Below are positions 59-16,724 of a stretch of DNA of 25,522 nt, in pieces (the stretch's first letter is position 1; each line of letters opens with the position of its first letter). Both the position numbers and the translations under genes were made by a program. Source of the stretch: a virus; IMG/VR virus record IMGVR_UViG_3300020459_000059, positions 1-25,522 of that record; one strand, written 5' to 3'. A model generated the notes under the pieces. It saw only the letters and a program-made list of their open reading frames with translations, was not told the DNA's origin and did not search any database.

Positions 59-3000
59 TTAGCGTGCGCGAGAATTTTTAAAAGGATGGGACGCGAATGC
101 AGCCCAGATGTAATTAGCACTGCTTCCATTAAACCAACCATCACTTCCTCGAAATTTAAAACCATTACTTACAGAATCACATACATTGCCGATGGTTGAT
201 CCATTTTCAGCATCAGCAACATTAGCAAGAAGATGATTGTCTATAACGTTAAAAGTATTGCGCTCAGTATCTACAATCACCCAGGGAGCGTTACCATCGT
301 ACCGTTTGACCATAATCCACTTAGGCCTGAAGCCGGTATAAACAAACGAACCATCAGATGAACCGTTGCCGGTGTAAGTTCCAAACTTGCTATAGCCTTC
401 GACAGGTGCAAAGCAATAAGCAATATAATCAGAATTTGTTGATTGCGATGGTTTAAACGTTGTTGAAGTAGGTGCATCAACACCAAAATTTGCGGATGCG
501 GGCGTGCTATTTAGAACTAAATAATCTGTTGTGTTCGCAAGTAGAGTTGTGATTACTACCCAGTCATAAGAATTATTCCTATCTTTAAGTATAATAAGTT
601 CAGGAGCAGCATTCAATCCGTGCGCAACATCAACAGCATTACTTGAGCTGCTGTAATCAACAATCGAGAACCCAGCAGACGGATTGGCGCGGACGGTTGA
701 AGCGATTGATGGGACGTTGGGTGCAGAAACGCCATTGTTCACGAGGAGCTTGCCATCAACCTCCACGCCACCCAGGTAGGGACCGACTAAGCCCGAATTT
801 GTAAGTTGAATGCTAGTTAGCTGTCCACCGAGTTCGGCAGCAGTTAAGGTAACAGGAACATTGTAATTACTTGTTCCGGTAATGTAACTGCCATTAACGC
901 GAGTGCCATACGAACTTCCGTTTGTTGGGTTGTAAACATAAAGAGTAACTGAAGTATTAACTGTAATAGCACTTGATGGCGTCCAGGTCAACGTTGCATC
1001 GGAAGCAGCAAAAGCAACATCAGAGGTTGTGGTAATAATGCCGTCAAAAGCTTTGTCCCAGTCAGTAGTTGAATTGTATGCAGTACCAGTTCCTAAAGAA
1101 CTCCAGGTCTGACTTTGGTTGTAAACAGAGCTATTCAGGCCGCCAGCAGGAATGATGCCAGCATCAACCAAAGGCTTCCCATCAATAACAATGCCCGCCA
1201 ATGCAGTCCAATCTGACCCGCTTGAGTTGACAGTAATTGCTGTAATTGATGCGCCGAAAGTCGAGTAAGGGTTGCTTACAGTTGTCGAAGCGATATTTGC
1301 ATTATCGACTGGTGTTACCGCTACCGAACCGTTGCTACATGTAACAGTAATGTTTCCTGTAGAACCGGTGTTGTGCCAAGTGTAAAATTCAACAGTGCTT
1401 GACGAAGTAAGTGTAATTGCGGTTGGGAACGTCAAAGTTGCTGACCCAGGGTAAAACCCCCACTGCTTTCCTGCACCAAAACTATCGCCAGGAGAATTTG
1501 AGCCATTAAAAGCGTTAGCGACTTCATACCCAGCGCCTGGTGTAGTTCCACTGTATGTGCCACTACTCCACGCTTGGCTTTGATTGTAAGCACTGTTGGT
1601 GGCTAAATCACCGCCGTCCCATGCGAAGCCGACATAAGTACTGCTGCCATCATTTACAGTGCTACTGGTTCCGATAGAAAACCCGTCACTTAAAAAAGCA
1701 TTCAAAAAAGCAGTCTCAGTTCCTTCCGATTGCGTATCGTTAGGGACAAGATTTTTAGTGGCTCCACGCACTGTATCCTGCAAACTATGGAGTGCAGTGG
1801 CACTACGCTGTTTAATCCATACCAAGTCAGGGCTAAAACCTAAGCCAGTGATATCCCTTTGCGTATCATTACCATTCCATGTCACCACATCAAACGCCGT
1901 CGAACCATCGGCAATCGTTGGGTCGGGAAGATTCGTTGTGCAGATACTGAGAAAATCAGTCGGAGGTGTATAGGCAAACGGTCTTTGGCCTGCATTTAAA
2001 GAGTAAACTTGACCAGTATTAGAATCAGACACAATAGGCGTATAAGCGGAATACGAAAGACCGCTAAAAGCATGTCCAGTTCCACCAACTGGATTGCCGC
2101 TGTTAATCCAAGTATTGTTTTTTGCAATCCACAACTTTCCTGAAGTTGCGTCTAACGCAAAACCTAATACATCCCCTTGTGTGTAGCTGACTCCAGATCC
2201 TGTGCTGCCATCACCATAAAGACCTCCAGTGTCTCGCATTGCAGCAATCTGACTTGTAGCCCAACCCCTAGAGCCTCCTGTCCGTATTTGTTCAACATCA
2301 AGAACACCGATATAAGCCTGACCAGCAGTCGTGACGGTTGTAATCGTAATCTCCCAGTACCACTTACCGCTTGTGACGGGTATTGTGCCGGTAAAATCAC
2401 CGCGAGGGTTGGTGTCTAAATTGCCATTTGTAGGCGCTTCCTGGTAATTAGCCGAAGCATTACGATCAATAGGGTTCCAAGTGCAATAGTTCCCGCCATT
2501 GTTGCCAGAATCCGCCTCGTAATTCGTCGGCGTGTCGATCAGGCTATCAATATTTGATGTATTTTCAGAAACTAGAATAGTCCCGTCCACACGGACAGCA
2601 AATACATTTGAGCCAGGGTCAGGAGCATTTACAGAAATAGAAGTTACATTGCTTTGACTTCCAAAACTAATCCACTCTGCAGTTTGAGTTGTTTTAGAAT
2701 AAGTAGCTCCATTAGATAAAGTATAAACAGTTGGGTTGCCTTGATATGTACCTGGCAGATATACATATAATTCTATGACGCCCGAGATAGCTGTGCTAAG
2801 CGTTACAGTACTTGTGGTGTTGAAAATGTAGGGTGCAGGGTAGGATGTACTCCCGTTAAATGCCTGGCTCCAATTGCCGCTATAAAGTGAACCTGTTGAT
2901 GATGAAACATAATCAATAGCATTAGCCGTCAGGTTATTAACCGTCCAATCTGTGTCGTTTTTGCTGGTTGCGAATGGATCACCACTCGTGGTTAAAGTGT

Positions 3001-4693
3001 TAGGGCTAACTGTTGCAGCAGTCGCAGATGAGCTTGATTGGCAACAAAGCAACTTGGTGTTCGTAACATTTGTAAGAGGAGTAGAAGGAACTGTAAACGC
3101 TGTTCCATTTGGATAAAGGCAAGTACCATTTACGATACGGACATTTGAGATTACCCCGCTAAAATCATAGTTACCATCGCCGTCTTCACCAATTGTCACT
3201 GCTGCTGTACTGTCGTGAACTGTCCAGCCTGTAATACTGGTAGTATCCTCTTGGACACCATCTACATACATTCGCAGAGTATTCCCATCACGCACAATCG
3301 CAACATGTGCCCATTTATTTGCTGTAAAAGCTGTGGTTGAAGTAACAGTAACATAATTCAAACTGCTATCATATAGATAAAAAATTAGGCTTCCACCCGC
3401 AAAAAATGCTTGCCACCATGAATAACTTGAGTTACCGTATTTAGAAACTGTTACATCATACGTTTCAAACGAGGCTGGGTTTACAAAGTATTCAATAGTC
3501 CAATCGTTTGTGCCAAGTGTAAAATCACTATGATCTGCACTACTAACTACATCGCCAGAGCCATCAAAAGAAACTCCGGGCAAAGTAGTGCCAAGACCGC
3601 TGCTATCCGCTCCAAGCGCAGCGTTGCTGCTGTTGTCAAAGAAGTCGAGGTGGAATGAGTTAAATACTCTTGTGCCGCCAGTGTCGTACATCCGCAAATA
3701 TGTGCCATCGCCGCTTGTATAAACACGGAAATAACCTTCGTATCCACTTGGGAAATTAAACTTCGTATTTAGTGTTGCGCCTGCTGCAATCGTGACAGAG
3801 TTTCCGCCAGAGCTAGTAAAAGTTCCAGAGTTAGCAGCACTACCACCTACCCAGGGTTGAATATAAACAGTTATCGAACTAGATTTAGTGTTTTCCCATT
3901 TAATGTTTATAGATGGTTCGTTAGAGGCGCTATATGTATATCCAATAAAATCACCTGTAGGCACTCCGTAGGTACTTAAATCACCATCAATAGTTTTGGC
4001 TACTTCTGTCGAAGTAATGTCTGAACCGTATGATGGACCATAAGCGGGAGCTGTGTGGGTTCCGTAGCTTCCAGTAAACTCCTTCGGCTGCCAAACATTG
4101 TTGTCGTCAAATTCACCGAAGTCAGTTGGAGCAAGGGCTTGACCGTCGATGAAGTGAACGTCGGCTAAGTAGCCGTCAAGATAATCGTAGCTAAGGTAGT
4201 TACCAATGCGATGCGTATCGGCTTGATTTATTGCAAGGTCAGCATTCTGACTAGGGTTATTAAATGCAGAAAAATCAGTTATTTGACTTCCATTTACGTA
4301 CACCTTGATCCTGTCATTAGCAGTAGCGTTCGTGGTATCTACAGCAACGACCACATGCTGCCATGCACTAAAGTCACGAAAAATTGCGGAAGTTGTTCTC
4401 CATACAGTCGACCAACCTAGTACCCTCAAGGAACCGCCACTTAAGTAATCAATGAAAAACGCTCCACTGTCGCTTTGTGCGCTGTAGGAGTGAAATAATA
4501 CTTGCCCTTTGTTTTTGCAGAGTTTTACCCACCCACTCCAAGTCCACGTCTTGCGATTACCTGCAGTTGACGGAGTTCTGGAAAGATAACTGGAATCTCC
4601 TGAGTTAAATCTAAGCGATCTTGAAATTTTGTAGTCAGCAGCGCCGCCTTGTCCTGCGGCACCTGCTAGTTGATTATTACTAATTACACTCAT
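59..4693 (-). CDS. Giant mosaic tail fibre / adhesin with LamG-like and SPRY-like domains
   Basis: A 1544-residue protein, probably a distal receptor-binding fibre. It is a chain of recognisable modules: a LamG/concanavalin-like fold at about 25-200 (containing WTWSGWVK and WQHVVVAVD), a second at about 372-540 (WTIEYFVNP, KWAHVAIVRDG), and a SPRY-like domain at about 735-912 (GKWYWEI, GDVLGFALD). Three looser beta-rich modules at about 595-708, 1035-1176 and 1190-1318 each start near a YNQSQxWSS- or SGNWSQ-like motif with AFxG and end with a VDGxxLV motif. A repeat with the pattern GFxPxxIxxK...W...D..R occurs at about 950, 1359 and 1453, and the chain ends on a module typical of marine phage fibres (YIWAAFASHPF). 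Composition is rich in Ser, Thr, Asn and Gly with little Lys. The start overlaps the previous gene by ATGA. Domain names come from motif reading, so fold calls are moderate in certainty; the role as an adhesin is inferred from position. Confidence 0.85.
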   Translation of the reverse strand: MSVISNNQLAGAAGQGGAADYKISRSLRFNSGDSSYLSRTPSTAGNRKTWTWSGWVKLCKNKGQVLFHSYSAQSDSGAFFIDYLSGGSLRVLGWSTVWRTTSAIFRDFSAWQHVVVAVDTTNATANDRIKVYVNGSQITDFSAFNNPSQNADLAINQADTHRIGNYLSYDYLDGYLADVHFIDGQALAPTDFGEFDDNNVWQPKEFTGSYGTHTAPAYGPSYGSDITSTEVAKTIDGDLSTYGVPTGDFIGYTYSASNEPSINIKWENTKSSSITVYIQPWVGGSAANSGTFTSSGGNSVTIAAGATLNTKFNFPSGYEGYFRVYTSGDGTYLRMYDTGGTRVFNSFHLDFFDNSSNAALGADSSGLGTTLPGVSFDGSGDVVSSADHSDFTLGTNDWTIEYFVNPASFETYDVTVSKYGNSSYSWWQAFFAGGSLIFYLYDSSLNYVTVTSTTAFTANKWAHVAIVRDGNTLRMYVDGVQEDTTSITGWTVHDSTAAVTIGEDGDGNYDFSGVISNVRIVNGTCLYPNGTAFTVPSTPLTNVTNTKLLCCQSSSSATAATVSPNTLTTSGDPFATSKNDTDWTVNNLTANAIDYVSSSTGSLYSGNWSQAFNGSTSYPAPYIFNTTSTVTLSTAISGVIELYVYLPGTYQGNPTVYTLSNGATYSKTTQTAEWISFGSQSNVTSISVNAPDPGSNVFAVRVDGTILVSENTSNIDSLIDTPTNYEADSGNNGGNYCTWNPIDRNASANYQEAPTNGNLDTNPRGDFTGTIPVTSGKWYWEITITTVTTAGQAYIGVLDVEQIRTGGSRGWATSQIAAMRDTGGLYGDGSTGSGVSYTQGDVLGFALDATSGKLWIAKNNTWINSGNPVGGTGHAFSGLSYSAYTPIVSDSNTGQVYSLNAGQRPFAYTPPTDFLSICTTNLPDPTIADGSTAFDVVTWNGNDTQRDITGLGFSPDLVWIKQRSATALHSLQDTVRGATKNLVPNDTQSEGTETAFLNAFLSDGFSIGTSSTVNDGSSTYVGFAWDGGDLATNSAYNQSQAWSSGTYSGTTPGAGYEVANAFNGSNSPGDSFGAGKQWGFYPGSATLTFPTAITLTSSSTVEFYTWHNTGSTGNITVTCSNGSVAVTPVDNANIASTTVSNPYSTFGASITAITVNSSGSDWTALAGIVIDGKPLVDAGIIPAGGLNSSVYNQSQTWSSLGTGTAYNSTTDWDKAFDGIITTTSDVAFAASDATLTWTPSSAITVNTSVTLYVYNPTNGSSYGTRVNGSYITGTSNYNVPVTLTAAELGGQLTSIQLTNSGLVGPYLGGVEVDGKLLVNNGVSAPNVPSIASTVRANPSAGFSIVDYSSSSNAVDVAHGLNAAPELIILKDRNNSYDWVVITTLLANTTDYLVLNSTPASANFGVDAPTSTTFKPSQSTNSDYIAYCFAPVEGYSKFGTYTGNGSSDGSFVYTGFRPKWIMVKRYDGNAPWVIVDTERNTFNVIDNHLLANVADAENGSTIGNVCDSVSNGFKFRGSDGWFNGSSANYIWAAFASHPFKNSRAR

Positions 4694-5271
4694 GAATAAG
4701 CAAGGGTTGCGACTGCATGGATAGAAGTAGAACTGCGAACGACATAATCAATACGATCAACAGCGGATGCAGTTGTAGTCAAAGTCGGTGCAGTACCTCC
4801 AGCAAAGTCCCAATAAGAACCCCAGGAAGCTAAACGGCTACCAGTGCCATCTTGGACAAGGAAGATAGAACCAGATTGACCTGCAGTTAAGTTGGTAGGG
4901 TTAGCAATTGTTCGGTTGCCACCGAGCGTTAAACTATAGTTATTAGATGTCGAGAAATCAGGCGTTACCGTAGCGCCATCGGTCAACGTAGTGATAGTGC
5001 CACGCTGCGCAGCACTGAAGGTTTGTGTAACATCAGTCTTTGCAGTGTCAGCATCAAACGCTTGAATGGTTGTCCCAATGTCTGAATCCTGTGCGTAACC
5101 AGTTAGGTCAGCTTGTGTAGAAACAAGGCTTGACCCTTCCTTGACATATAGTTTGTCTTGATCAGTTGCGTAACAAATCTCACCCTCTTGAATATCAGAC
5201 AGCGAGCCATTAAGATTAGAATATGTACCTCGTGCAACGCGCAGAGGAGTTCTGTTAGTAGGTGTAGGCAT
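4690..5271 (-). CDS. Small tail fibre protein
   Basis: A 193-residue protein between the T7-type fibre adaptor and the giant adhesin. The N-terminal half (NRTPLRVARGTYSNL, then EGEICYATDQDKLYVKEG) matches a segment found at the front of many marine phage fibre proteins. The middle holds a DVTQTFSAAQRG motif, also seen in phage fibres, and the rest is a beta-rich stretch with many Thr, Ser and Gly (SLTLGGNRTIANP). The start codon overlaps the adaptor stop as TAATG and its own stop overlaps the giant adhesin start as ATGA, so the three fibre genes look translationally coupled. It could be a short fibre, a connector between adaptor and adhesin, or a collar-like piece; the sequence does not decide this. 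No enzymatic motif was seen. Confidence 0.85.
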   Translation of the reverse strand: MPTPTNRTPLRVARGTYSNLNGSLSDIQEGEICYATDQDKLYVKEGSSLVSTQADLTGYAQDSDIGTTIQAFDADTAKTDVTQTFSAAQRGTITTLTDGATVTPDFSTSNNYSLTLGGNRTIANPTNLTAGQSGSIFLVQDGTGSRLASWGSYWDFAGGTAPTLTTTASAVDRIDYVVRSSTSIHAVATLAYS

Positions 5272-6653
5272 TAGTCGAAAGATCCTCCGTCGTAAGTAGT
5301 AGAAGTAGAAACAAGTGAAGTACCGCTAGCAAAATTGCCGCCATCAGCAACAAGAGTCCCGCCACTAGAACTCGATACAGTACCTGGCATCCAATGACTC
5401 ATTGATTGATTCCAAACCAAAGCTTGACCATTAGTCGGAACATGTCCAGATGAGGAAGTATCAACGTCAGTTAAATCACTAATAGAATCTGGAATGGTTG
5501 GTTTATTACTCAGGTCGTTGTAGTTACCAGAAAATCCGCCACCACCACCACCTGTAGTTGCGTCGAGATTAATTTCAGTGTTACCAGACTGGTTAACAGT
5601 AAATGTACCTTTAGTAGTGCCGCCCTGTTTGAGGGTAATAGTGCCGTCACCAACTGTAGGAATCGTTGGTTGGTTAGTTAGATCGTTGTAATTACCACTA
5701 AACGCAGCAGGTACAGCTTCCCAAGCTGCATCCTTACGACCGTATAGGACACCGTCGTTAGGAACATCAGTAACCCCAGGAGTACCAGTATCTCCTTTGT
5801 CACCTTTAGGACCAGACTTAGAGACTGCCACCCACTGAGCACTTTGCTCATCTACATAGTAGACATACATAATGGCTCGATAGGAATCAAACCAAAGGTC
5901 TCCACTTTCAAGTGATCTAGCATTATTACTACCAACAGCAGGATATTGAGTCGGAGGATTGTCACCAACTATTACTTTACCTGGAGGACCGAAGTCACCC
6001 TGTACACCGGAAGGACCTGAGGCAGTAAAACTAACCCAAGCTCCTACACTTGCATCCCAGAAATAATGACGAAGATCATCCGTATCATTCCAGATTTTAC
6101 CGTCTTGTTCGTATGTAACTGCAGCGGGTTGGTCGTCTTGAACGTAAGCATCATGCCTAGCTGCTATTGCAGCTGCATCGAATATATGAGAACTATCTAG
6201 AAGAGCTTCAGCTTGACCAGCTTTTTGCTGAGTTTCAGTAATAGTTGAATCAATCTTACTCCAGTATTTGAGATCTGAAGTATTACTATATCGTTCTGTA
6301 TAGCATCGTACTTCTTCAACAGCAGATTTAATAACAAAGAAATTATTATTTAAATCTTCTGCTTTGATTGAATGGCCTGGAAAAAATTCTGCAGGAAGTG
6401 ATACTAAGTCAGTACAACGATAGATAATAAATTCTTGATTGAATGCTGGTGGATCATTAAATCGAATTAAAGTATCGTGCTGAAAAGTCCAATCTGCATT
6501 AGGGATTTTTACCCAACTTGCTAGACTTACATCAAAGAAAGCAACTGCGACATCATCTCTTGTGTAGTATTCAAATGTAATTAAGTATTCTTTTTGTACA
6601 CCATTACCGGTGTATGTGTCTCTTGCGGTATCGCAATTGTGACATAGAGCCAT
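5271..6653 (-). CDS. T7 gp17-like tail fibre adaptor with collagen-like segments
   Basis: 460 residues. The first 125 or so (YTGNGVQKEYLITFEYY ... SIKAEDLNNNF) match the N-terminal domain of the T7 tail fibre, which attaches fibres to the tail nozzle. After a helical segment come two short collagen-like Gly-X-Y runs at about 213-225 and 281-293 (GPKGDKGDTGTPG). A 15-residue repeat follows at 318-332 and 374-388, both reading FSGNYNDLxNxPTIP, separated in part by a run of six glycines. The C-terminus is Ser/Gly/Thr-rich with no obvious receptor domain. This suggests a short trimeric rod that carries the next two fibre proteins rather than a complete T7 fibre (T7 gp17 is about 550 residues). 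It starts two bases after the gp16-like stop. Confidence 0.9.
   Translation of the reverse strand: MALCHNCDTARDTYTGNGVQKEYLITFEYYTRDDVAVAFFDVSLASWVKIPNADWTFQHDTLIRFNDPPAFNQEFIIYRCTDLVSLPAEFFPGHSIKAEDLNNNFFVIKSAVEEVRCYTERYSNTSDLKYWSKIDSTITETQQKAGQAEALLDSSHIFDAAAIAARHDAYVQDDQPAAVTYEQDGKIWNDTDDLRHYFWDASVGAWVSFTASGPSGVQGDFGPPGKVIVGDNPPTQYPAVGSNNARSLESGDLWFDSYRAIMYVYYVDEQSAQWVAVSKSGPKGDKGDTGTPGVTDVPNDGVLYGRKDAAWEAVPAAFSGNYNDLTNQPTIPTVGDGTITLKQGGTTKGTFTVNQSGNTEINLDATTGGGGGGFSGNYNDLSNKPTIPDSISDLTDVDTSSSGHVPTNGQALVWNQSMSHWMPGTVSSSSGGTLVADGGNFASGTSLVSTSTTYDGGSFD
5490..5534 (-). repeat. Copy 2 of a 15-codon direct repeat in the fibre adaptor
   Basis: Encodes FSGNYNDLSNKPTIP (residues 374-388), directly after a six-glycine linker. 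The same kind of YNDLxNxP motif is, from memory, frequent in cyanophage fibre proteins, where it may form a repeated structural turn in a trimer. Confidence 0.85.
5658..5702 (-). repeat. Copy 1 of a 15-codon direct repeat in the fibre adaptor
   Basis: Encodes FSGNYNDLTNQPTIP (residues 318-332 of the adaptor). The second copy differs at two of 15 residues. Synonymous differences between the copies show it is not a recent exact duplication. Confidence 0.85.
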
Positions 6654-6655
6654 GA

Positions 6656-9600
6656 TTATCTAGTTGGAATTAACAGTTCTGTTGTCCTATTATTCATACG
6701 ATCCTGCTCTTGCTCAAATCGACGTTGATTTAGCGCACCACCTGACTCTTCATTAATCCTGTAGATAGCTGCTTCTTTAGCAAGGTTAAGTTCCTTATCA
6801 AGCATGATATGGATACTGCCAAAGTCTTGTAGACGCGGAGGTTGTTCGTTATTATCACGAGCTTTCTTAAATGCTTCTCTAAACTTTCTACCATCCACTG
6901 ACTGCATAATCTTTTGAACGGCTTTTTTGAATGTACCGTCCTGACCAATGTACTTATAAACCTGTGCTTGTTCTGCAATAGTAAGTTTCAGACCTTGACC
7001 ATCAGTCATCATTGACGGGCGGTGGTCGTACTCAATATCCATCATGAACTGTTTCTCATCGCTAATCTTTCCGTTGACCTTCCATGGACTGTAGGTGTTA
7101 TAGACACGAGCAATAAAGTTACCAGGCTCATTAATTAAGTCACCATCAAACCAGTCATACTGCTCAGGCAACATGCCTTTAGCAGGTGTTCTGTTAGCCA
7201 TCATTGCAAAGAGATTCTCCTCAACAACACGAAGCTCAGGACTAATTAGACGGGTAAGTTCAGCCATCTGACTGGATCCACGGAACACAGTAGAAGGTAA
7301 GAATGATGATGCCCAACGGTTAATAGCAGCAGGGTTGCCAGACGCAATGTCATAGAGAGGTTCAATGCCAGCAAGCATTGACTTATCAGTAATGGATGCA
7401 CTGAGAACAAAACCCACAGCATTGAGACTGGTAGCAAGGTTTCTATCATCGAGAGAATCAAAGTTATCCATGATGTCAGCAGTCAATGCCAGCCAATCAG
7501 TAAAAGGACCAAGGTTGTCGTAGCTCACCCAGTTACCACCAGGAGCTTTAATTGACCTAGGCTTCCAATCCATGTCACGACGTACACGTTGCTTTTGTCT
7601 GTCGTAGTGACCGTTACCAGTAATGCGATCGTTCATGAATAGACCAAAAGCACTCATAGTTGCAAGTGCACCAATAGCCTTTCGACCTTTTAGCTCAGCT
7701 CTAATCGCGTTGTAGTTAGCTTCAGCAAATTTCAAATCATCCATAGGAATACCTCTAGATGACAGCAGCTTTTCTACCTTTTGAATAGGCATCTGCTCAA
7801 ACGGAAGGCTGAATGCATTAAGCTGATTGGCAAACACACCTACAGGGTTGTGTGTACCGAACAACTGGATCATATTGACAGGTGTCTTATTAAACAAAAG
7901 GAACGGACGAAGACCAGGTACACGATTCAAGACCGTAGAAATAGTGTCGGTAAGCTTGTTATCCAGGTTCATAGCGATCTCACCAGAAGCCTGCTTAACA
8001 GCCTTGTCTGTAACGATCTCTCGACCCATAGAATCCTTGCCCCAAATCTCTTTGTAAGACTTCTCGTAAGCAGCTTGAATATCGTCTGGTTTTACAGAAC
8101 CAATATTTACAGCATCAAATGCTCTTCCTCTAGCCTCAGCAACGCCAATAACAGCCTGAGTAAAGCCATCAGTAGCCTGCATCAGGCGTGTACCAAATCG
8201 CAGCCAAGGATGGTCAGCAAGAGCTTGAATCTCTTCAATCTGAGCCATCAATGCTTGAGGTCCATATTCACCTTGCTTAGCCTTAGCATCTGCATAGGAG
8301 TTCAGAATCTCGATCTGTTGCTCGTTCTTGCGGATCAGCATGTCACGACCAGCAACACCCGCATACGTAGGGTCTTTCGCTGAGCGAGTCATGGTCTCAC
8401 CGAAGTACTTCATACCCTTCTGCATAGCCTCTGTAAAGGCTGAATACTGATAGAGACCTCTACGTAAGGTGTAGCCATCACGGTGCGTCAGAGCACCAGC
8501 AAACGTAGCTACAGGACGTTCAATAAGTAAGGCACCTGCAGAAGCAACAGCCTTGATAGGTGTAGCAAAAGCAGACAGTGTGCTGTTATAAACATTAGAC
8601 CAGAAACCCTGCATGATTACAGAAGGGATCTCAGGCTGCATGTCAACTAATGCTTTGTTTATCACTCCAGTTGATTGTCGGAAGTAGTTATTAAGAGCAT
8701 CAATAGTCTTTACTGAACCATCACTAGCCTCGTATGCGAGCATCAGAGGTTCAAGCATCTCAGGGTTCTTTTCCTTAATTTCACGAAGTGTGGCAACAGC
8801 AGCTTTAGCTTCTGCCTGTAGTTGCTTCAGGGTGTCAGCACCTTGCTTACGCAGCTGTGCAGCAGTAGGCTTCTCTCCACCACGCTTAAATACATTCATC
8901 AAGTTAAGCAGCAGACCACGTTGCTTACCTGTCTCTCCATTAGCCACCATCAGTAGCTCAATACGATCCAGGATCTGCTCCTGTGAACGCAAGACACCAG
9001 CAGTACCTTCTGAATAACGCATACCTTGCGCCATGTCAGAGACCTGACCAGCAATAGATGTACGAACAAGAGAGTCAGCAACACCATCAGTAGCAAGACC
9101 GAACTGTTGCATGGATTCTTTAAGCATCAACTTGACAGCAGTCATACCCTCAGATGACATCATCGGAGCACCTGTGTCAGGGTTAATACCGACCTTCATT
9201 CTGTCTAACTGACGAGTAAGCTCTTTGTTAGACATGTAGCCAAGTGATTCAGCTAGGTCTTCACCAGCATCACGGATAGTTTTAGAGTTAATATACTTAC
9301 CACTTTTGAGTTTGTAACCGTATTCATCAGCTTCAAGTAAAGTTTCCCGCAGACCCTTCATCACATTGGTGTATTCCTCTACACCCTCCAGTGAATACTT
9401 GAGTGCAGGTTCAGTCATTACACTACCTAAACGACCATATGAGGTATCTAGATTGTTTTGAACGCGAACAAGGTCAACAGAAGCACCAACAATACCCATG
9501 TCATCAGCTGACCTAATACCCATCTCTTCATAGCCATACAAGTCATGTATACCAAAGATAGGTTCATCTAGGTTCTGTGCCTTAGAGAAGTTATAACCTC

Positions 9601-10489
9601 CAAGGTTGTCTAAATCTTCTGTACGCTTAGTAACACCCTTATCAATTACATCTTCTGTTGCATCAGGTGCGTTATTTTTCAGCCAAGACTTGGCTTTTTC
9701 TGACTCGGGAATCCATCGTGTAGCAGCCTTAGAACCCGCAAGTTTTGCAGCTAACTTGACAGCTCCACCAACAATGTCAGTGAAGATACCAAGACCAGTG
9801 CTTTCATAAATGTTCTTAGCACGCTTCTGATCAGGACTATCAGTGTCAAGTGTGGCAAGGTCACTAGGCACCCAGCCATAAGTCCTAGGGAAAGACTTCT
9901 TTAATGTGCCAAGTATGTTGTCATCACGTTCATTGACCTCAGCTACAAAATCAACACCAGCACCAATACCGGCACTAGCTCCTGTAGAAGCTAACCACTT
10001 GATAAAAGGGTCAGACAAAGCTGCAATCTTGGAGCCTTTACCAGCAGCTTGCAAAGCACCAACACCTGTCAGTGTAAGACCAACAGTAGGAACAACGACA
10101 CTAGAGATATCTCTAATAGCTGTAGCAGTTTCGTTTTGATATGTAGGTAGCTTAGGTATCTCGACACCAGGGATCTTGTTGATAAGCTCTATGCCCCAAT
10201 CAATAGTACCTGTAGCAACTGCCTCGCCAGGCATTACAGGACCTTTACCAGCAAGGATATCCTCTACTGGCATAGGTTCATTTTTAGTCTGTTCTGCCTT
10301 AGCAGGTTCAGGCTTTACGTCAGGTTTAGAATTTGGAGCAACATCGTACTCAGGCTTTTCCTCTACCTCTGTCCTTAGTGTTTCTGCATCTGCTGCTCTT
10401 TGTTCATTAGCAGCCTGCATTTCTAATAGTTCATCCTGATCAATCCCGTCCGGCGTACCGTTAAAGATTTCATTAATAGGATCGCTCAT
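6656..10489 (-). CDS. Internal virion protein, T7 gp16-like
   Basis: 1277 residues, close to T7 gp16 (about 1318), and in the gp16 position between the gp15-like protein and the fibres. In T7 this protein is the last of the ejected core and forms the channel through the inner membrane for DNA entry. The first 110 residues are acidic then Pro/Lys/Glu-rich (KPDVKPEPAKAEQTKNEP), and look disordered. Residues 130-190 and 230-260 contain hydrophobic, Gly/Ala-rich stretches (VVVPTVGLTLTGVGALQAAG; GIFTDIVGGAVKLAAKLAG) that could contact membrane. Long helical segments fill the rest. I found no lytic transglycosylase motif here, unlike T7 gp16, whose N-terminus carries one; the domain is on the upstream gene instead. 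The start overlaps the previous stop as ATGA. Confidence 0.9.
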   Translation of the reverse strand: MSDPINEIFNGTPDGIDQDELLEMQAANEQRAADAETLRTEVEEKPEYDVAPNSKPDVKPEPAKAEQTKNEPMPVEDILAGKGPVMPGEAVATGTIDWGIELINKIPGVEIPKLPTYQNETATAIRDISSVVVPTVGLTLTGVGALQAAGKGSKIAALSDPFIKWLASTGASAGIGAGVDFVAEVNERDDNILGTLKKSFPRTYGWVPSDLATLDTDSPDQKRAKNIYESTGLGIFTDIVGGAVKLAAKLAGSKAATRWIPESEKAKSWLKNNAPDATEDVIDKGVTKRTEDLDNLGGYNFSKAQNLDEPIFGIHDLYGYEEMGIRSADDMGIVGASVDLVRVQNNLDTSYGRLGSVMTEPALKYSLEGVEEYTNVMKGLRETLLEADEYGYKLKSGKYINSKTIRDAGEDLAESLGYMSNKELTRQLDRMKVGINPDTGAPMMSSEGMTAVKLMLKESMQQFGLATDGVADSLVRTSIAGQVSDMAQGMRYSEGTAGVLRSQEQILDRIELLMVANGETGKQRGLLLNLMNVFKRGGEKPTAAQLRKQGADTLKQLQAEAKAAVATLREIKEKNPEMLEPLMLAYEASDGSVKTIDALNNYFRQSTGVINKALVDMQPEIPSVIMQGFWSNVYNSTLSAFATPIKAVASAGALLIERPVATFAGALTHRDGYTLRRGLYQYSAFTEAMQKGMKYFGETMTRSAKDPTYAGVAGRDMLIRKNEQQIEILNSYADAKAKQGEYGPQALMAQIEEIQALADHPWLRFGTRLMQATDGFTQAVIGVAEARGRAFDAVNIGSVKPDDIQAAYEKSYKEIWGKDSMGREIVTDKAVKQASGEIAMNLDNKLTDTISTVLNRVPGLRPFLLFNKTPVNMIQLFGTHNPVGVFANQLNAFSLPFEQMPIQKVEKLLSSRGIPMDDLKFAEANYNAIRAELKGRKAIGALATMSAFGLFMNDRITGNGHYDRQKQRVRRDMDWKPRSIKAPGGNWVSYDNLGPFTDWLALTADIMDNFDSLDDRNLATSLNAVGFVLSASITDKSMLAGIEPLYDIASGNPAAINRWASSFLPSTVFRGSSQMAELTRLISPELRVVEENLFAMMANRTPAKGMLPEQYDWFDGDLINEPGNFIARVYNTYSPWKVNGKISDEKQFMMDIEYDHRPSMMTDGQGLKLTIAEQAQVYKYIGQDGTFKKAVQKIMQSVDGRKFREAFKKARDNNEQPPRLQDFGSIHIMLDKELNLAKEAAIYRINEESGGALNQRRFEQEQDRMNNRTTELLIPTR

Positions 10490-12930
10490 AATATCGAAGG
10501 TCTAAATGTTGTAGGGTCTTGGAGAGCTTGCTTTCCATAACCGTAACTACCAGCATTACGAATAACCTTTCCATAGTATTCTTGGTTCTCCCTACTACCA
10601 GGGATAGGACCGCCATACTTTTTAATGTTACCCATACCACCGTTGTAAGCAAAAATAGCAAGGCGCATATCGCCTTTAAAATAATCAATAAGGTATCTTA
10701 GGTACTTAGCACCACCATCAATAGCAGAAGCAGGATCATATACATTTACTCCAAACTCTGCAGCTGTAGGATCCATAAACTGAGTCAAGCCTTTTGCACC
10801 TGAACGACTAACAGCGTTCGGGTTCCAACCAGATTCAGTTTGAATAAGTCCAGCCAGAATAGCTGGATCAATATTGTGCTTTTTAGCTGATGCTTCCACC
10901 ATAGGACCGAAACCCTTAGGCACGATATCTGGTGTGAAAGCTGATACTCCCATCAGACCTCTATTAGATCTTTCAGGTGTTTTATATTTATTAAGTAGTC
11001 TTTGCTGTGTAGGAGTTAGTTTATTAGCTACCTCAATAGCAGGACTAGGAGGTAATGCATCCATTTTGTTAGCTTTTAATTGTCTGTTTAAAACCGTGAG
11101 TGGATCTACACCTAACTTGTCTGCGATATAATCAATCTGTGGGTCAGTAGTCCAGTTCTCAGAACCAAAACCTTTGACCATATTCTTTAGTGACTCTTGT
11201 GAGAAAAGAGCGTTTGGCATATCGAGAACAGCACCACCATATGACTGAAGGTTGGTATCAATAAACCTGATTCGATAGTCCATCTCTTCCTGAGATGTCT
11301 GCACACCACCTCTGTCAAATGCAAACTCATGTGCATAGGCATTTGCAGTTGATTCAATAGACTCAAACTCAGATTCAATTTGCCTGTAAGCATCACCTAC
11401 AGGATCATTACTACCACCCTGTGCATAAGAAGTTACAAGGCTGTTAAATCTTTGCTGCTGTCTAGCAACCATGAGTCCAACAGAAGGATGTTTCTTACTA
11501 TCTCTAGTGACACCAGCTTTATACTCAACCATATCTTTAATGGCATCAAGTTGGACCTTAAGTTGACCAGTCTCATGTAGTTTGTCAGTAGTCTGAGCAA
11601 CACTCAGATATTTCTTCTGCAGTTGTGGGTCATACCTCTTGAGCCGATCAGTAGTTAACAGGTTATAAGCTATAAGATTTTCAATTTGATCTTCTTGTAC
11701 TTCACGCTGTTTAGCATCAACAGTAGAGTTTTTAAGTGCAGCTAGTTCTCTACTCTCCATACCATAGTTGTCTCGAAGAGTATTGATAGCATCATCAATC
11801 TGATCATCAGTAAACCCATCTTTATCAGATGAGTCAATAAAAGAATTGACTAACTCTTGTTCAGCTTTTTCAAATTCTTGTCGACGATCTGTCTCTTCGT
11901 TATTCCAGTCTTGCCGTCTCTGTGCAGCAGCTTGTCTACGGATCTTGCCGAACCTAGTCCCGTATAGTTCACCATAGGTACGACCTTTAGGGTCACCAGG
12001 GATAGGCTGACCTTCCATAGCAACAAGATCACCTTCAGAGTATTTACCAGCAGCAATACCATCAGTCAGCTCTTTCTCATACAATGCCCATGCACCTGAA
12101 TAACCAAGAGGTTGACCGTTCTTATCAACAGTATTACGTGTAGCATCTAGAAATGAAGGAATATCTTTAGTAGCTAGAAGTGTTGTAGATGCCTCAGCTT
12201 GGCGTTGAAAGGAATCATCAATAGCAAATCCCAACTGCCTTTTACGCTTCAATGCAGCGTCATGCTTACGAAGTGATGGATAGACACTTTTGGCTAAAAA
12301 CTGAGGCTTTAGATCAGATAGTCCAGCCTTCTGAAAAAACTCCTTTCTTACTTCTGATAATGCTGCAGCATACTCACCTGAGGTTTTGAAGGTCTTATCT
12401 CCAAGTCTTTGCTCAACAAAGTTTGGGTAATCAGTAGCAGCCGCCATAGCAAAACCACGGCGTACATTTACTTTTTTTAAAGCAGTGTTATTACCAATAT
12501 TCGCAGCAGCTTCATAGTTAGCACCGCTATTCTTCAGTACATCAGCCTCGACATCACTAGCAATAGCATCTTGCTCGTTAACTGTATCCATGCCTTCATT
12601 AAAGCTGGACATGTCAAGACCATTTTCCTCATAAAGTTGGTAACCTTTTTCTACATCAATAGCTGCCTGTTCTTCGTTCTTCTCTTTTTGTCTATCGACC
12701 AGTAAGTCTACAAGCTTTCCGCTAAACTTACTGAGTGCAATAATATCTTGCCCTGCAAGCTTAGCGTTTTCTACCTTCTGTCTGTTGTTCTCACGAATTG
12801 CGGCGAGAAACTCTGCATCAGCTGAGCGTTGCCTTGCTTGTTCCCTATCGATAGCAGGAATCAAGTCAACCTGATGCACAGTTTGATACTGCACACCATT
12901 ACCGTATATCTGAAATTGATCTTGTTCCAT
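10486..12930 (-). CDS. Internal virion protein, T7 gp15-like, with C-terminal lytic transglycosylase domain
   Basis: 814 residues, against about 747 for T7 gp15. The first 660 residues are hydrophilic and helical, rich in Gln, Glu, Lys and Arg, as expected for the ejected core protein that spans the periplasm. Residues from about 673 to 790 form an SLT (lysozyme-like, family 1) transglycosylase domain: catalytic Glu near residue 699 in LIQTESGWNP, then SGAKGLTQFM, then AYNGG at about 761-765 followed by NIKKYGG. These three motifs are the diagnostic ones of the family. It would cut peptidoglycan locally during DNA injection. The start overlaps the gp14-like stop as TAATG and the stop overlaps the gp16-like start as ATGA. 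Confidence 0.93.
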   Translation of the reverse strand: MEQDQFQIYGNGVQYQTVHQVDLIPAIDREQARQRSADAEFLAAIRENNRQKVENAKLAGQDIIALSKFSGKLVDLLVDRQKEKNEEQAAIDVEKGYQLYEENGLDMSSFNEGMDTVNEQDAIASDVEADVLKNSGANYEAAANIGNNTALKKVNVRRGFAMAAATDYPNFVEQRLGDKTFKTSGEYAAALSEVRKEFFQKAGLSDLKPQFLAKSVYPSLRKHDAALKRKRQLGFAIDDSFQRQAEASTTLLATKDIPSFLDATRNTVDKNGQPLGYSGAWALYEKELTDGIAAGKYSEGDLVAMEGQPIPGDPKGRTYGELYGTRFGKIRRQAAAQRRQDWNNEETDRRQEFEKAEQELVNSFIDSSDKDGFTDDQIDDAINTLRDNYGMESRELAALKNSTVDAKQREVQEDQIENLIAYNLLTTDRLKRYDPQLQKKYLSVAQTTDKLHETGQLKVQLDAIKDMVEYKAGVTRDSKKHPSVGLMVARQQQRFNSLVTSYAQGGSNDPVGDAYRQIESEFESIESTANAYAHEFAFDRGGVQTSQEEMDYRIRFIDTNLQSYGGAVLDMPNALFSQESLKNMVKGFGSENWTTDPQIDYIADKLGVDPLTVLNRQLKANKMDALPPSPAIEVANKLTPTQQRLLNKYKTPERSNRGLMGVSAFTPDIVPKGFGPMVEASAKKHNIDPAILAGLIQTESGWNPNAVSRSGAKGLTQFMDPTAAEFGVNVYDPASAIDGGAKYLRYLIDYFKGDMRLAIFAYNGGMGNIKKYGGPIPGSRENQEYYGKVIRNAGSYGYGKQALQDPTTFRPSIL

Positions 12931-13601
12931 TATGCATCGTTAAGTTGGTTGTATGTCTGATAGCCACCGATAGCAGCACCACCAAGATCCGCAACCAAGC
13001 CAAGTGGTGACGGCCCAGGTGTCATGACAGGAGGTGGAGCAGCAATACCTAGTTGAGGTTGTATAGCCACGTTTTGATACGCCTTATTGTTATCTCCCTG
13101 CAGTGACCTGTTGATAGATCCAACACGGTCCTGATAAGCCATGCCTGCACCAAATAGAGACTCAGCAGCAATGGCTTGATTACGACCAAACTGACTAACA
13201 ATCTGATTGTCTAGTCGCTGTGCTGATCTACCAGTCATGCCAGCTGCAGCGGCTCTATCAGATCCTTGTACTAATTGCGCGAGGTTAGCTTGATTCCTAA
13301 ATGACGCTTGCTTATAAATATTATTTAGCTTTTGCTGTTCACTTGCGTAGGCACGGTTAGCAGCTAAAGCATTTTCACTTAGGTTACGTTTGTACTGAGA
13401 GACACTACGGTTATAACGGAACTTTTCACGATCCCAGTTACGTTCCCGTATCTTCATTTTATATTTGTAGTTGCTACTTGCAGCTTCATTCTGGGCATTA
13501 GCCTGAGCTTGTGCGGACTGGTGAGAACCTACGGCTCCTACAGCTGATACTCCGAACGAAGCAATACCTAGACCCAGTGCAGGTGTCATTGGAGTGCACA
13601 T
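12930..13601 (-). CDS. Internal virion protein, T7 gp14-like
   Basis: 223 residues (T7 gp14 is 196) in the gp14 position. In T7 this core protein is ejected first and forms the pore in the outer membrane. A short N-terminal Cys-Pro start (MCTPMTPALG) precedes a hydrophobic Gly/Ala stretch at 8-26 (ALGLGIASFGVSAVGAVG) and a long alanine- and glutamine-rich helical region at about 27-170; a second hydrophobic stretch occurs near the C-terminus (LGLVADLGGAAIGGY). The chosen start overlaps the gp13-like gene by 16 bases; an in-frame ATG at 13589 would give an ATGA junction instead. I prefer the first because MC-P openings are common in this family as I remember it. Confidence 0.88.
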   Translation of the reverse strand: MCTPMTPALGLGIASFGVSAVGAVGSHQSAQAQANAQNEAASSNYKYKMKIRERNWDREKFRYNRSVSQYKRNLSENALAANRAYASEQQKLNNIYKQASFRNQANLAQLVQGSDRAAAAGMTGRSAQRLDNQIVSQFGRNQAIAAESLFGAGMAYQDRVGSINRSLQGDNNKAYQNVAIQPQLGIAAPPPVMTPGPSPLGLVADLGGAAIGGYQTYNQLNDA

Positions 13602-14026
13602 TTATCGAATCGTATAAAGGGTAAGTTGTTGGGACCATGCCTCACTTCCTCGTGCAGCGTGAACCCTAGAAAGTTGAGTAGTTTGATGTGGACGGTATTT
13701 CTCTTGTCAACGATGTTCCACAGGTAAGGCTCAGGACGTCTGTCAATAAAGCGTTTAGCCTCTCTTGCAAAATGATGCGGAAAGTCTTCTATGGCTGTTG
13801 TACATAACATCCATATCTGACCATTTTTATGAATACCAGCCAGACCGGCAATCCTGCCGTCAGGCACGTTGAATGATACGCAGAAGCCTTCTGTAGAGGC
13901 GAGAGGGATGTGGATGGTAGGTATGATCCCATGTCCCTCTTCGCACTCTCTACGGTCATCCTCGCGTAACTGAGAGGCAACCTGATAGGCAGCCTCCAAT
14001 GTACATGGGTGAATAAATTTAGACAC
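13586..14026 (-). CDS. T7 gp13-like internal protein
   Basis: 146 residues, close to T7 gp13 (138), lying between gp12-like and gp14-like genes as in T7. The C-terminal part has the pattern RNTVHIKLLNFLGF...E...PFIRF, which I associate with gp13-like proteins of podoviruses and with the tail end of an acetyltransferase-like fold. T7 gp13 is needed for assembling the internal core but is not a stable virion part. The start is GTG and overlaps the stop of the nozzle gene by eight bases (GTGTCTAA); there is no other in-frame start close by. Acetyltransferase activity is not claimed, since I cannot identify a cofactor loop with confidence. Confidence 0.82.
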   Translation of the reverse strand: MSKFIHPCTLEAAYQVASQLREDDRRECEEGHGIIPTIHIPLASTEGFCVSFNVPDGRIAGLAGIHKNGQIWMLCTTAIEDFPHHFAREAKRFIDRRPEPYLWNIVDKRNTVHIKLLNFLGFTLHEEVRHGPNNLPFIRFDKCALQ

Positions 14027-16724
14027 GTTTGTAATAGCGTTGATTATAATCTCCTTCCCATCTCATAGAACGCAGAACTAATGGATGTGGAAACTCAGAC
14101 TCAAGAGACATGTTCAGGTTTGTATTCCTTGTATAAACAGGAACTGTCCTTTCTATTTCCGTTACCAGAGGATCTTCATCAGCTGTATATTCATCCATAT
14201 ATTTAGATTCATATAGGACCTTGTAGTCATCCATACCATCTCTAGATATAAGGAATTCATAACTACCAATGTCGGCAAAGTTAAAGTTACATCTATGCAC
14301 CACAAGAGATGCTGTGGTGTCAGACCTAAACTGATTTTGCTCTGCTTTTAATACATTGATAATAGGAAAGTCAAGTTTAAATTTATATGATTTCTGCGTA
14401 CTTGCTGTATTAACAGGGTCGTCCTGCCAGTAGTCATAGAACGGACCTGCTGTAGGCAGAGCGTCTAATTGCAGTTTGATGAACTTACTAAATCCATCAT
14501 CATCCTCTACAACACAATAGTAGTCACCATCAATGACGAAGTGCTGAGCTAATGATCCAGGCAACTGCCATCTAAACCAACAAGTCTGAATGTTATTCTG
14601 GTTACCTTCTGAAAAGTAACGGTATCCATAAACAATATCAGAGTCAAACTTACCTACAAATACAACATTAGCTTCTTTAGAATCAGCAATTAGATTAAGA
14701 CCATTAGGAATCGTTCTGCTAATAATCTTACTTCTCTCGAGAACATCAACCGGACCCTGATCAAACACATTCGTTAACTCATAGAACGTACTATGAGTTG
14801 TAGATAAACCCATGAAACCAATGTTAGTTCCAAGAGCAAATGGTCTAGTCTCGGTATCAAATTCATACCTACTGATTTCAGAGATCTTTGCAGTACTAGG
14901 ACTTAGAATGTCATTAGATGTATCTAGTCTAAATTGCTGGTACTTACTAAACAGAACCATACCACTGTTAATAACAATGGCATCTTGCAAAACTGAGCTA
15001 AAGTTAGTAGAGACACTAAGGTCAATAGGATCACTAGCTGCTACACCAAGAGCTGAAGCAGGGAACATATTAAATAGATCGCCAGCTCTTGACATGACAA
15101 CATTCTCTTCGCTCAGGAATACAAGCCTGTTCCTATAGAAGTGAACATTAGATATTGGTTTATTGACAAAACTAGGATTAAAGTCATCAGTTCCACAAGT
15201 CCTATCGCTGTAGTCAACAGAAGATGCGACAAAACATGGCACACCATTATTGGTAGCAAATATAATGACATGAGGCATATTCGCTGAGTTCAGAATAGTC
15301 TCAGTACCAGGCTCTGCTACCTCTTCCCAATAACCTGTTGCAGCTACGATATTACTGGAACTTACTTCTCCATAGTTAGAAACAAACCGAACAAAGTAGT
15401 CATCATCATCAGAGAACGCATTAGCAACTTTAACAACAAGACCATCCTTACATTCGATAGGAAGTCTGGATACATTATTTACGACAACATAAGGATTATC
15501 TTGCTCCTCGTCTGTATTACTAAGGATATTCATTAAATCCTTTTCACTTGTGCTTATAGTGAATGGTTCGTCATGGTGGATATACAGACCATTACCTACA
15601 ATGTCTATTTTTGCGCCAAGCAAGGGAGTAGCAGTAAGCTGTGTTTTTAAATCATTCAGTACATCGTTAATCGTAACTACGGTGCTACCACTGCTAGGTG
15701 TTTGTACACCAGTAATTGCATACTGATTAGGAGAGTAGACAGTTTTAACTTCAGTAACTTCAATGATGTAATAAATATCATCACCAGTTGGTCTTGGTTT
15801 ACCTTTATCACCAGACTGTGACACAAGAACCTGATCACCTACCCTCCAACCAGTACCACCAGAAATTAGGTCAAGGTTAGTACGATAGGTGCATTTTAAA
15901 TTATTACCTTTGCCTTGTACCTGGACACCCGTAGTGTTGATGTCTATACGCATACCCTGTTGACCACGCCGACCACCTCTAAATTCATAGGTATCATCAA
16001 ATTCAATAATTTGATGGTAAGTACCAGGACAAGAGGGATCTTTATTTACAGACTCACGGGTGTTGACTACATCAATTAAGTTGACTTTAGTAGCAACAGT
16101 ATATTCGGCATTAGGTGCAGTATTATTTAGTAGGTCAAGACCAAGAAGATATTCCCTATTATAAGCAAGTTGTGTAATTTCAATAAATGCTTCAAATGGT
16201 CTTTTGTTATCAGACGTAGATGTAGTTACAACATTCTCAGGGTTAGTAACAACAGTAAAGTTATTAACAGTAACAGCCTTCAGACCATTGTTATCCTCAT
16301 GTGAAAAATAATTATAGCGTTCACAAGTTAATAGTTGACTAAAATCTATATTGCCTTCATTAATCTGCTTGGCTGTAAGAGGTTCTTGACTATAAAATAC
16401 ATCTACATTATTACCATCCATATCATAAGCGTGGAAACTACCAGCCTGATTGATATAGAACAAATAATTTTCTTGAGTTTTAGTGGTTGTGTTCTGCCTA
16501 ATAAATGGGAACCAAGTACCATTCTGTGGTTGTGGAATATTCCCATTACACTCATCGTACAGAGAACTAAGTAGTTTAAAGCCAGGTCGTTTATACAGAC
16601 CATTGACAAGATCAGGGTAAGCATTCAGACAATCCCTTAGCTGACCTGGTTTCTTTAGTTCGTCTGGTTGGTCAGAGATACCACCAGTTGCATAGTTAGG
16701 AATAATCTGTGAAATGCTGCTCAT
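14019..16724 (-). CDS. Tail tubular protein B (nozzle), T7 gp12-like
   Basis: 901 residues (T7 gp12 is 794). The N-terminus shows the conserved gp12 pattern: a loop with GGISDQPDELKKPGQLRDC and then NAYPDLVNGLYKRPG, in which the phage nozzle protein contacts gp11. The rest is beta-rich with many aromatic and Asn/Thr/Ser residues, and contains the conserved HFYRNRLVFLSEENVVMSRAGD segment in the middle, typical of this family. It forms the hexameric nozzle through which DNA leaves, and carries the fibres. The start overlaps the gp11-like stop as ATGA. It is about 100 residues longer than T7 gp12, which may reflect an inserted domain at about 220-420, where the similarity I can recall is weakest. 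Confidence 0.93.
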   Translation of the reverse strand: MSSISQIIPNYATGGISDQPDELKKPGQLRDCLNAYPDLVNGLYKRPGFKLLSSLYDECNGNIPQPQNGTWFPFIRQNTTTKTQENYLFYINQAGSFHAYDMDGNNVDVFYSQEPLTAKQINEGNIDFSQLLTCERYNYFSHEDNNGLKAVTVNNFTVVTNPENVVTTSTSDNKRPFEAFIEITQLAYNREYLLGLDLLNNTAPNAEYTVATKVNLIDVVNTRESVNKDPSCPGTYHQIIEFDDTYEFRGGRRGQQGMRIDINTTGVQVQGKGNNLKCTYRTNLDLISGGTGWRVGDQVLVSQSGDKGKPRPTGDDIYYIIEVTEVKTVYSPNQYAITGVQTPSSGSTVVTINDVLNDLKTQLTATPLLGAKIDIVGNGLYIHHDEPFTISTSEKDLMNILSNTDEEQDNPYVVVNNVSRLPIECKDGLVVKVANAFSDDDDYFVRFVSNYGEVSSSNIVAATGYWEEVAEPGTETILNSANMPHVIIFATNNGVPCFVASSVDYSDRTCGTDDFNPSFVNKPISNVHFYRNRLVFLSEENVVMSRAGDLFNMFPASALGVAASDPIDLSVSTNFSSVLQDAIVINSGMVLFSKYQQFRLDTSNDILSPSTAKISEISRYEFDTETRPFALGTNIGFMGLSTTHSTFYELTNVFDQGPVDVLERSKIISRTIPNGLNLIADSKEANVVFVGKFDSDIVYGYRYFSEGNQNNIQTCWFRWQLPGSLAQHFVIDGDYYCVVEDDDGFSKFIKLQLDALPTAGPFYDYWQDDPVNTASTQKSYKFKLDFPIINVLKAEQNQFRSDTTASLVVHRCNFNFADIGSYEFLISRDGMDDYKVLYESKYMDEYTADEDPLVTEIERTVPVYTRNTNLNMSLESEFPHPLVLRSMRWEGDYNQRYYKRV

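Follow-up and report, generated by a model that had tools for sequence, protein, structure and literature searches.

The 1,544-residue putative adhesin encoded in a 25.5-kb virus fragment is shown here, by comparison with its relatives, to change piecemeal, a single domain or module being replaced in each case by DNA of other phages. The whole fragment analysed (25,522 nt; IMGVR_UViG_3300020459_000059, positions 1 to 25,522) is referred to below as the window. With a probability of about 0.75, the protein would be a fibre-tip adhesin of a T7-like cyanophage, borne by a dock domain and composed of a fixed chassis and optional sugar-binding-like modules, with one-domain replacement and crossovers in the linkers. 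The names VDG modules (V1-V3), repeats R1-R3, module M1, and dock are our own labels, and L-numbers denote the loci of relatives.

Gene neighbourhood and domain map

The window is, by gene content, a genome fragment from a T7-like cyanophage. Its portal protein is 64-70% identical to those of P-SSP7, S-SBP1, and S-CBP3, and psbA is located among the structural genes, the combination expected of the T7-like cyanopodoviruses (MPP). Synechococcus podoviruses account for most of the DNA matches, which cover the genes for ribonucleotide reductase, the capsid, and psbA; the megablast matches overlapping psbA showed ~75-81% identity. The features of the window are listed in Table 1.

Table 1. Features of the window and, for domains of the adhesin, the nearest relative with amino acid/nucleotide identity (the match of V3 to L002, seen in other comparisons, is omitted)
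Feature	Position	Strand	Residues	Basis or remark	Nearest relative
Whole adhesin gene	59-4693	minus	1544 aa	ORF, Pfam	
LamG1, N-terminal chassis domain	4058-4633	minus	21-212	Pfam, profiles, AlphaFold2	L053, 89%/87%
Module M1, optional insert	3659-4057	minus	213-345	low pLDDT, fold unclear from model	
Conserved linker	3584-3661	minus	345-370	border comparison	
LamG2, optional insert	3014-3583	minus	371-560 (profile core 397-533)	Pfam, AlphaFold2	L002, 96%/97%
VDG module V1	2555-2938	minus	586-713	matched by V2 and V3 profiles	
SPRY domain, chassis	1952-2491	minus	735-914	Pfam, AlphaFold2	L080, 66%/65%
R1, first DUF7483 repeat	1601-1939	minus	about 919-1031	Pfam, profiles	L060, 92%/93%
VDG module V2, R1-R2 slot	1154-1588	minus	1036-1180	profiles, relatives	L003, 86%/83%
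VDG module V3, R1-R2 slot	713-1129	minus	about 1189-1327	profiles, relatives	L055, 84%/86%
R2, second DUF7483 repeat	404-706	minus	about 1330-1430	profiles	L002, 90%/93%
R3, third DUF7483 repeat, and conserved C-terminus ending AR	62-403	minus	1431-1544 (repeat to 1535)	profiles	L004, 87%/88%
193-aa gene	4690-5271	minus	193 aa	last ~110 residues (4693-5031) are the dock domain	
460-aa fibre protein	5271-6653	minus	460 aa	weak T7 gp17-type N-terminus (residues 13-104); Pfam and PHROG	
814-aa internal virion protein	10486-12930	minus	814 aa	C-terminal lytic transglycosylase-like part, residues about 669-797	
psbA (photosystem II D1)	18809-19864	minus		amid structural genes	

The 1,544-residue ORF reported by the initial annotation is real and is encoded on the minus strand, the plus strand of the same interval being full of stops. 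As that annotation claimed, the protein is larger than the T7 fibre (gp17, 553 aa as given in PMC3909814). Positions 1-58, directly past the adhesin stop codon, contain a short inverted repeat, by eye a possible terminator. The strongest Pfam match of the protein is DUF7483 (PF24299; 293.1 bits, cut-off 27), followed by Laminin_G_3 in two stretches (108.7 bits, cut-off 27.6) and SPRY (33.4 bits, cut-off 26.3), and domain borders were set with profiles built from relatives. In AlphaFold2 models of residues 1-735 (mean pLDDT 70.9) and 714-1544 (mean pLDDT 79.1), LamG1, LamG2, and SPRY form separate folds; model quality was poor for M1 and V1 and middling for V2 and V3. LamG2 matched PAPP-A (Z 20.1, rmsd 3.0 over 189), and the two LamG domains together matched the laminin LG4-5 pair (Z 16.2) with an rmsd of 15.2, because they are placed differently; the structure matches of the LamG folds are to laminin G and pentraxin. 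SPRY matched human Ash2L (Z 21.6, rmsd 2.2 over 168). The list from the fold search with the C-terminal model was filled by SPRY, and a search of the viral library returned mostly unnamed proteins. The two LamG-like folds and one SPRY-like fold of the initial annotation, a claim that was to fall if structure prediction failed to separate them, are therefore confirmed, and annotations of named phages bear out its statement that SPRY folds occur in marine phage fibres.

DUF7483 corresponds to three tandem repeats of ~105 aa, which in the window are split by two VDG modules. An iterated profile seeded with R1 matches R2 at E 3e-23 and R3 at E 3e-26, and 30 of 30 repeats from relatives also match DUF7483. 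A profile search of the PDB with the repeats gave a single match, at E 0.74, and nothing usable. The tandem repeat appears to be old because it is common to the whole family. Both this triplet and M1 (residues 213-345), which has relatives only in L063 and L080 (39-42% identity), were absent from the initial annotation.

Towards the adhesin, the gene order is internal virion proteins, the 460-aa fibre protein, the 193-aa gene, and the adhesin gene. The 460-aa protein scores 15.6 bits against Phage_T7_tail, below the cut-off of 25.2, and its N-terminal part matches PHROG tail fibre profiles at E 9e-12. The 193-aa protein scores 16 bits against Mtd_N (cut-off 26.3) and is thus not assigned to Mtd, the variable protein of DGRs. 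Its C-terminal dock domain has no Pfam family; a profile search of the PDB with it gave 23 matches up to E 1, mostly antibody chains (best E 0.048), none of them usable. A dock ends the ORF just upstream of the adhesin in 80 of 99 cases, including the window (median, 9 residues from the C-terminus), and is lacking upstream of the other 19; this count omits 12 adhesins without upstream sequence and three with LamG far from the frame start. In L022, SS120-1 (L049), and L082, the dock is fused in one ORF to a gp17-type N-terminus. Because the dock precedes most of the adhesins and is sometimes fused to a T7-type fibre, we read the adhesin as a fibre-tip protein. The same gene order and fusions suggest that the dock may carry the adhesin, the two proteins binding each other. 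The fibres of P-SCSP1u are anchored to the tail through their N-termini, with the distal portions left unresolved (PMC10575957).

Chassis, insertion slots, and VDG modules

The order LamG-SPRY-R1-R2-R3 is kept in 91 of 102 5'-complete relatives, a sample that includes L065-L143, the 80 matches most similar to the alignment among at least 596 rather than a random draw. Of the 11 others, seven consist of R repeats alone, one lacks LamG, and three are cut at the 3' end. The plain chassis, with no additions, is seen in 58 of the 5'-complete rows. Among the 91 proteins, 28 VDG or M modules are located between LamG1 and SPRY (in 18 proteins), 17 between R1 and R2 (11 proteins), and two inside R1, splitting the repeat (PSS2, i.e. 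L045, and L058); none was found between SPRY and R1, between R2 and R3, or past R3. In 56 proteins retrieved with an R2R3 profile, gaps of >90 aa were present in the LamG1-SPRY slot of 14 and in the R1-R2 slot of two, with VDG or M modules in two proteins (three modules, none in R1-R2). Since only two of these 56 proteins carry such modules, the VDG-rich picture owes much to window- and VDG-seeded searches.

Several variants of the chassis were observed. In some relatives (L041, L066, L084, and others), another R triplet lies between LamG and SPRY. Two full LamG-SPRY-RRR genes lie back to back in L136 (2660-5158 and 5162-7663) and in L110, and two occur on one contig in L108. The R1 repeats of the L136 paralogues are 80% alike and their other measured domains 32-49%, as would be expected had a single repeat been copied from one paralogue to the other. 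L031 encodes a 2,140-aa relative (9556-15975) in which LamG occurs five times and SPRY twice, next to a second relative of 1,080 aa (5716-8955).

The three divergent beta modules that the initial annotation described as each ending in VDGxxLV are, by profile comparison, homologous: iterated profiles seeded with V2 and V3 each match V1, V2, and V3, and the V1-seeded profile matched V1 only. Their endings are VDGTILV, IDGKPLV, and VDGKLLV, so that the motif is strict in two of the three modules, with I for V in the other. The proposal of a build-up by module duplication is not supported for these modules. V1, V2, and V3 are only 23-30% identical to one another, whereas V2 is 72-86% identical in amino acid sequence to modules of five other contigs and V3 80-84% to modules of three others, all located in the LamG1-SPRY slot. 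In-place duplication was rejected on this comparison. Because outside identity far exceeds mutual identity, V2 and V3 look imported rather than copied in place; V1 has no close relative among the fetched loci.

The VDG modules are probably CBM32/6-like, with a galactose-binding-like jelly roll as the likely fold. A 41-member V profile matched 2rv9 and 4zxe at ~E 9e-5 (best match with a bias of 10.9 bits); these are named glucanase/chitosanase, and we take them to be CBM32-type discoidin domains. Further matches were 2ls6 (E 0.0027), 7blg (CBM32; 0.0071), and 2yb7 (CBM6) and 2w3j (0.022). With a 17-member profile, antibody chains came close behind CBM6. In Pfam, CBM77 matched one of the 41 modules (E 0.0033), no family matched more than two of the 41, and none fits. 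Searching 50,697 named phage records with tblastn at E 0.01 gave no match for V2 and one for V3 (S37-C6, 34%), and the VDG modules of PSS2 are visible only with profiles.

Single-domain exchange and the linkers

Mosaic tail fibres are well known. In the present gene, the domains listed with a relative in Table 1 have different nearest relatives, L002 serving for both LamG2 and R2, and the donors' other domains show protein identities of 21-65% once the linkers and shared VDG modules are set aside. For V2 and V3, DNA identity measured per ten codons is 60-100% within the module, against about 20-63% at its edges and in the flanks. The suggestion that the adhesin was assembled by module shuffling is thus upheld, and on stronger grounds than the initial annotation had. 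Among 4947 pairs of proteins, 22 share one domain at ≥78% with another at <60%, and 18 of these 22 do not involve the window; no pair is ≥75% alike in all measured domains, which holds only after the removal of copies. Identical ends and copies of one contig or phage (including L033-L035, L052, L054, L059, L061, L065, L106, L130, and L142), such copies being alike throughout, were dropped before the mosaic and linker counts.

Of 999 pairs of VDG or M modules, 973 are <45% identical, 21 are 72-100% identical, and two fall between 50 and 70%; one 100% pair (L011-L036) probably represents a single phage. V2 and V3 occupy the R1-R2 slot of the window and the LamG1-SPRY slot of the contigs carrying their close relatives (at least 72% identity), and all seven clear different-slot pairs involve the window. 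One or two relocations are therefore seen, and the slot changes of V2 and V3, both confined to the window, may be a single event.

Several donors appear to be phages of another tail type. In L002, a central tail fibre gene of lambda-J type is present (phrog_31 match at E 5e-146); phrog_31 matches that are shorter, covering about 146 positions with E 2e-9 to 4e-12, occur in L004, L053, L055, and L080, and L004 and L053 also carry a PHROG tail protein. This family was found in nine of 19 records and is absent from the window. With a lambda-J-type gene in several donors and T7-type genes in the window, the exchange of domains seems to reach across tail types: phages of apparently different tail type have domains in common whose DNA is 87-97% identical. 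This is firmest for L002; the lambda-J-type gene suggests long tails in the donors. PSS2, which we take to be a siphovirus, also lacks phrog_31, so its absence in L003 and L060 is uninformative on tail type. A T7-like portal and tail tube were found in one of 16 relatives' records and psbA in none of the 16, a count without weight because the records are fragments; Phage_tail_2 occurred in one of 19, below the cut-off. T7-like phages with a related adhesin include L057 (portal 65%) and S37-C6 (Autographiviridae).

At seven domain borders, the third base of same-amino-acid codons was compared with domain-interior rates, in pairs with one or both of the flanking chassis domains <60% identical. 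In a hand-picked near set of 23, identity was 0.508 at borders vs 0.428 in interiors, an excess of +0.080 (0.045-0.128 in 63% subsamples) that was positive at seven of seven borders; interior controls gave +0.010, one of them (LamG1 20-55) itself +0.05, and the other 77 sequences gave -0.002. In a set chosen by identity (the 22 most window-like sequences and the window), the excess was +0.035, again positive at all seven borders, with controls at 0.000, and it was +0.034 without the window. More distant relatives gave -0.002 (ranks 23-50) and 0.000 (rank 51 and below), and 20 random sets of 23 gave a mean of +0.005 (sd 0.015, maximum +0.027). The excess is thus roughly halved under an objective choice of near relatives and is absent in distant ones. 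DNA handles at the ends of VDG modules were also considered but are not claimed: nucleotide identity in the two end windows was 0.47 and 0.52, above the 0.32-0.44 of the module interior, yet the third-base values at codons for the same amino acid (0.48 and 0.39) overlapped the interior range (0.32-0.47).

The synonymous excess, modest as it is, favours shared recent DNA ancestry of the linkers and hence crossovers there; crossovers probably fall in the conserved inter-domain linkers, a view supported rather than proven by these figures. A specific version is tentative and somewhat doubtful: short linkers that stay similar in DNA would anchor homologous recombination, through which phages with short and with long tails, drawing on a common pool of hosts, would exchange single domains in frame and shift a VDG module from one of the two sites to the other. 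Only slightly short of even odds is the alternative that the adhesin is the same but its mosaic arose through illegitimate recombination, with selection retaining only products with intact domains, and that the linkers are required for folding rather than serving as crossover sites. The linkers are indeed conserved as protein even in distant relatives, where the synonymous excess is absent, and the ends of the VDG modules are so conserved without raised third-base identity. Against it stands the excess at seven of seven borders in near relatives, which in the objective set without the window still exceeds the maximum of the random sets.

Function, alternatives, and known systems

In the fibre-tip reading, the gp17-type protein would form the root of the fibre, the dock at the end of the 193-aa product would carry the adhesin, and the adhesin would be located at the tip of the tail fibre. 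The fixed chassis would accept optional modules (an extra LamG and the CBM32/6-like VDG modules) between LamG and SPRY and between R1 and R2, from which two tolerated sites they may bind host surface glycans. Single domains would be replaced by DNA from other phages, including those with a lambda-J-type gene, through crossovers in the conserved linkers. Position and folds make a host-range role plausible; host binding by the adhesin and the crossover mechanism are inferred.

Three other readings were weighed. That the protein is a virion component elsewhere, i.e. a capsid decoration, horn, or baseplate part, is unlikely: PHROG 19943, which matches part of the protein, is filed under 'head and packaging, virion structural' and some relatives' records say only 'virion structural protein', but the gene lies directly after the fibre genes, is paired with the dock, and matches PHROG 24898 ('tail fiber protein'), and several records say fiber or tail fiber protein. 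It is very improbable that the protein is a glycan-cleaving depolymerase rather than a binder, since the folds found (laminin G/pentraxin, SPRY, and CBM-like) are binding folds and no enzyme family exceeds its Pfam cut-off, although the LamG (ConA-like) superfamily, according to its Pfam name, also contains glucanases. Chimeric metagenome assembly as the source of the mosaic we regard as slightly less probable still. The window and its close donors are metagenome contigs that may be incomplete; however, the shared tracts are 82-97% identical in DNA (SPRY, 65%) rather than 100%, the frame is kept over all borders, single-domain sharing recurs in pairs without the window, and the same gene order occurs in a fosmid record of an Autographiviridae phage.

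Among named marine phages, the same chassis was recognized by profiles, in a similar place after fibre genes, in PSS2 gp073, the S37-C6 fiber protein, SS120-1, MEP301 gp16, CRP-811, HTVC011P gp36-gp37, and Greip gp3-gp2. All are <60% identical to the window protein, without any of them spanning 80% of the query at a single place; HTVC011P and Greip differ in that the chassis is split into two ORFs, LamG-SPRY and RRR, and VDG modules were seen only in PSS2 and S37-C6. Greip gp2 (L050 7245-8315) is annotated as 'SprT-like protease', and profiles show three DUF7483 repeats across it; the label is probably a misannotation.

In its gene order, with the adhesin directly after the fibre gene and the dock ending the upstream ORF, the system resembles T2/S16-type gp38, a separate adhesin on the end of the gp37 fibre trimer with hypervariable parts between conserved motifs (PMC12892980). 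The window adhesin would work like gp38 as a separate tip adhesin but is not a member: no gp38 family appears among its Pfam matches at E up to 1, and gp38, as described in that source, is a glycine-rich poly-glycine II sandwich, in contrast to LamG, SPRY, and DUF7483. By analogy, it would also work like the evolved Dit and long Tal proteins of siphophages of Gram-positive hosts, adhesion proteins in which CBMs are added at tolerated points (PMC8540738), again without being a member; core folds, hosts, and phages differ, and the account in PMC8540738, as far as it covers these proteins, does not describe one-domain DNA exchange. Among the genes that can be identified in the variable metaviromic islands of marine phages, those for host recognition (carbohydrate-binding, tail fibre, C1q, and lectin-like genes) are the most frequent; the parts of PMC3909814 concerned describe variable genes and C-termini, but neither the architecture of the window adhesin nor domain-by-domain exchange. 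In the open-licence literature, no paper was found on DUF7483 or on LamG and SPRY together in a phage tail fibre.

Beyond the initial annotation, the present analysis adds the DUF7483 triplet together with the dock and the mosaic of single domains, in which domains, and even individual repeats, differ from one another in their recent relatives, with exchange apparently reaching across tail types. DUF7483 probably serves as the repeat region of a fibre-tip adhesin, and the data point to a conserved upstream domain without a Pfam family as its partner. The family thus offers a countable system for receptor change in phages, in which the module in each slot can be scored per host, and crossovers as falling in linkers or not.
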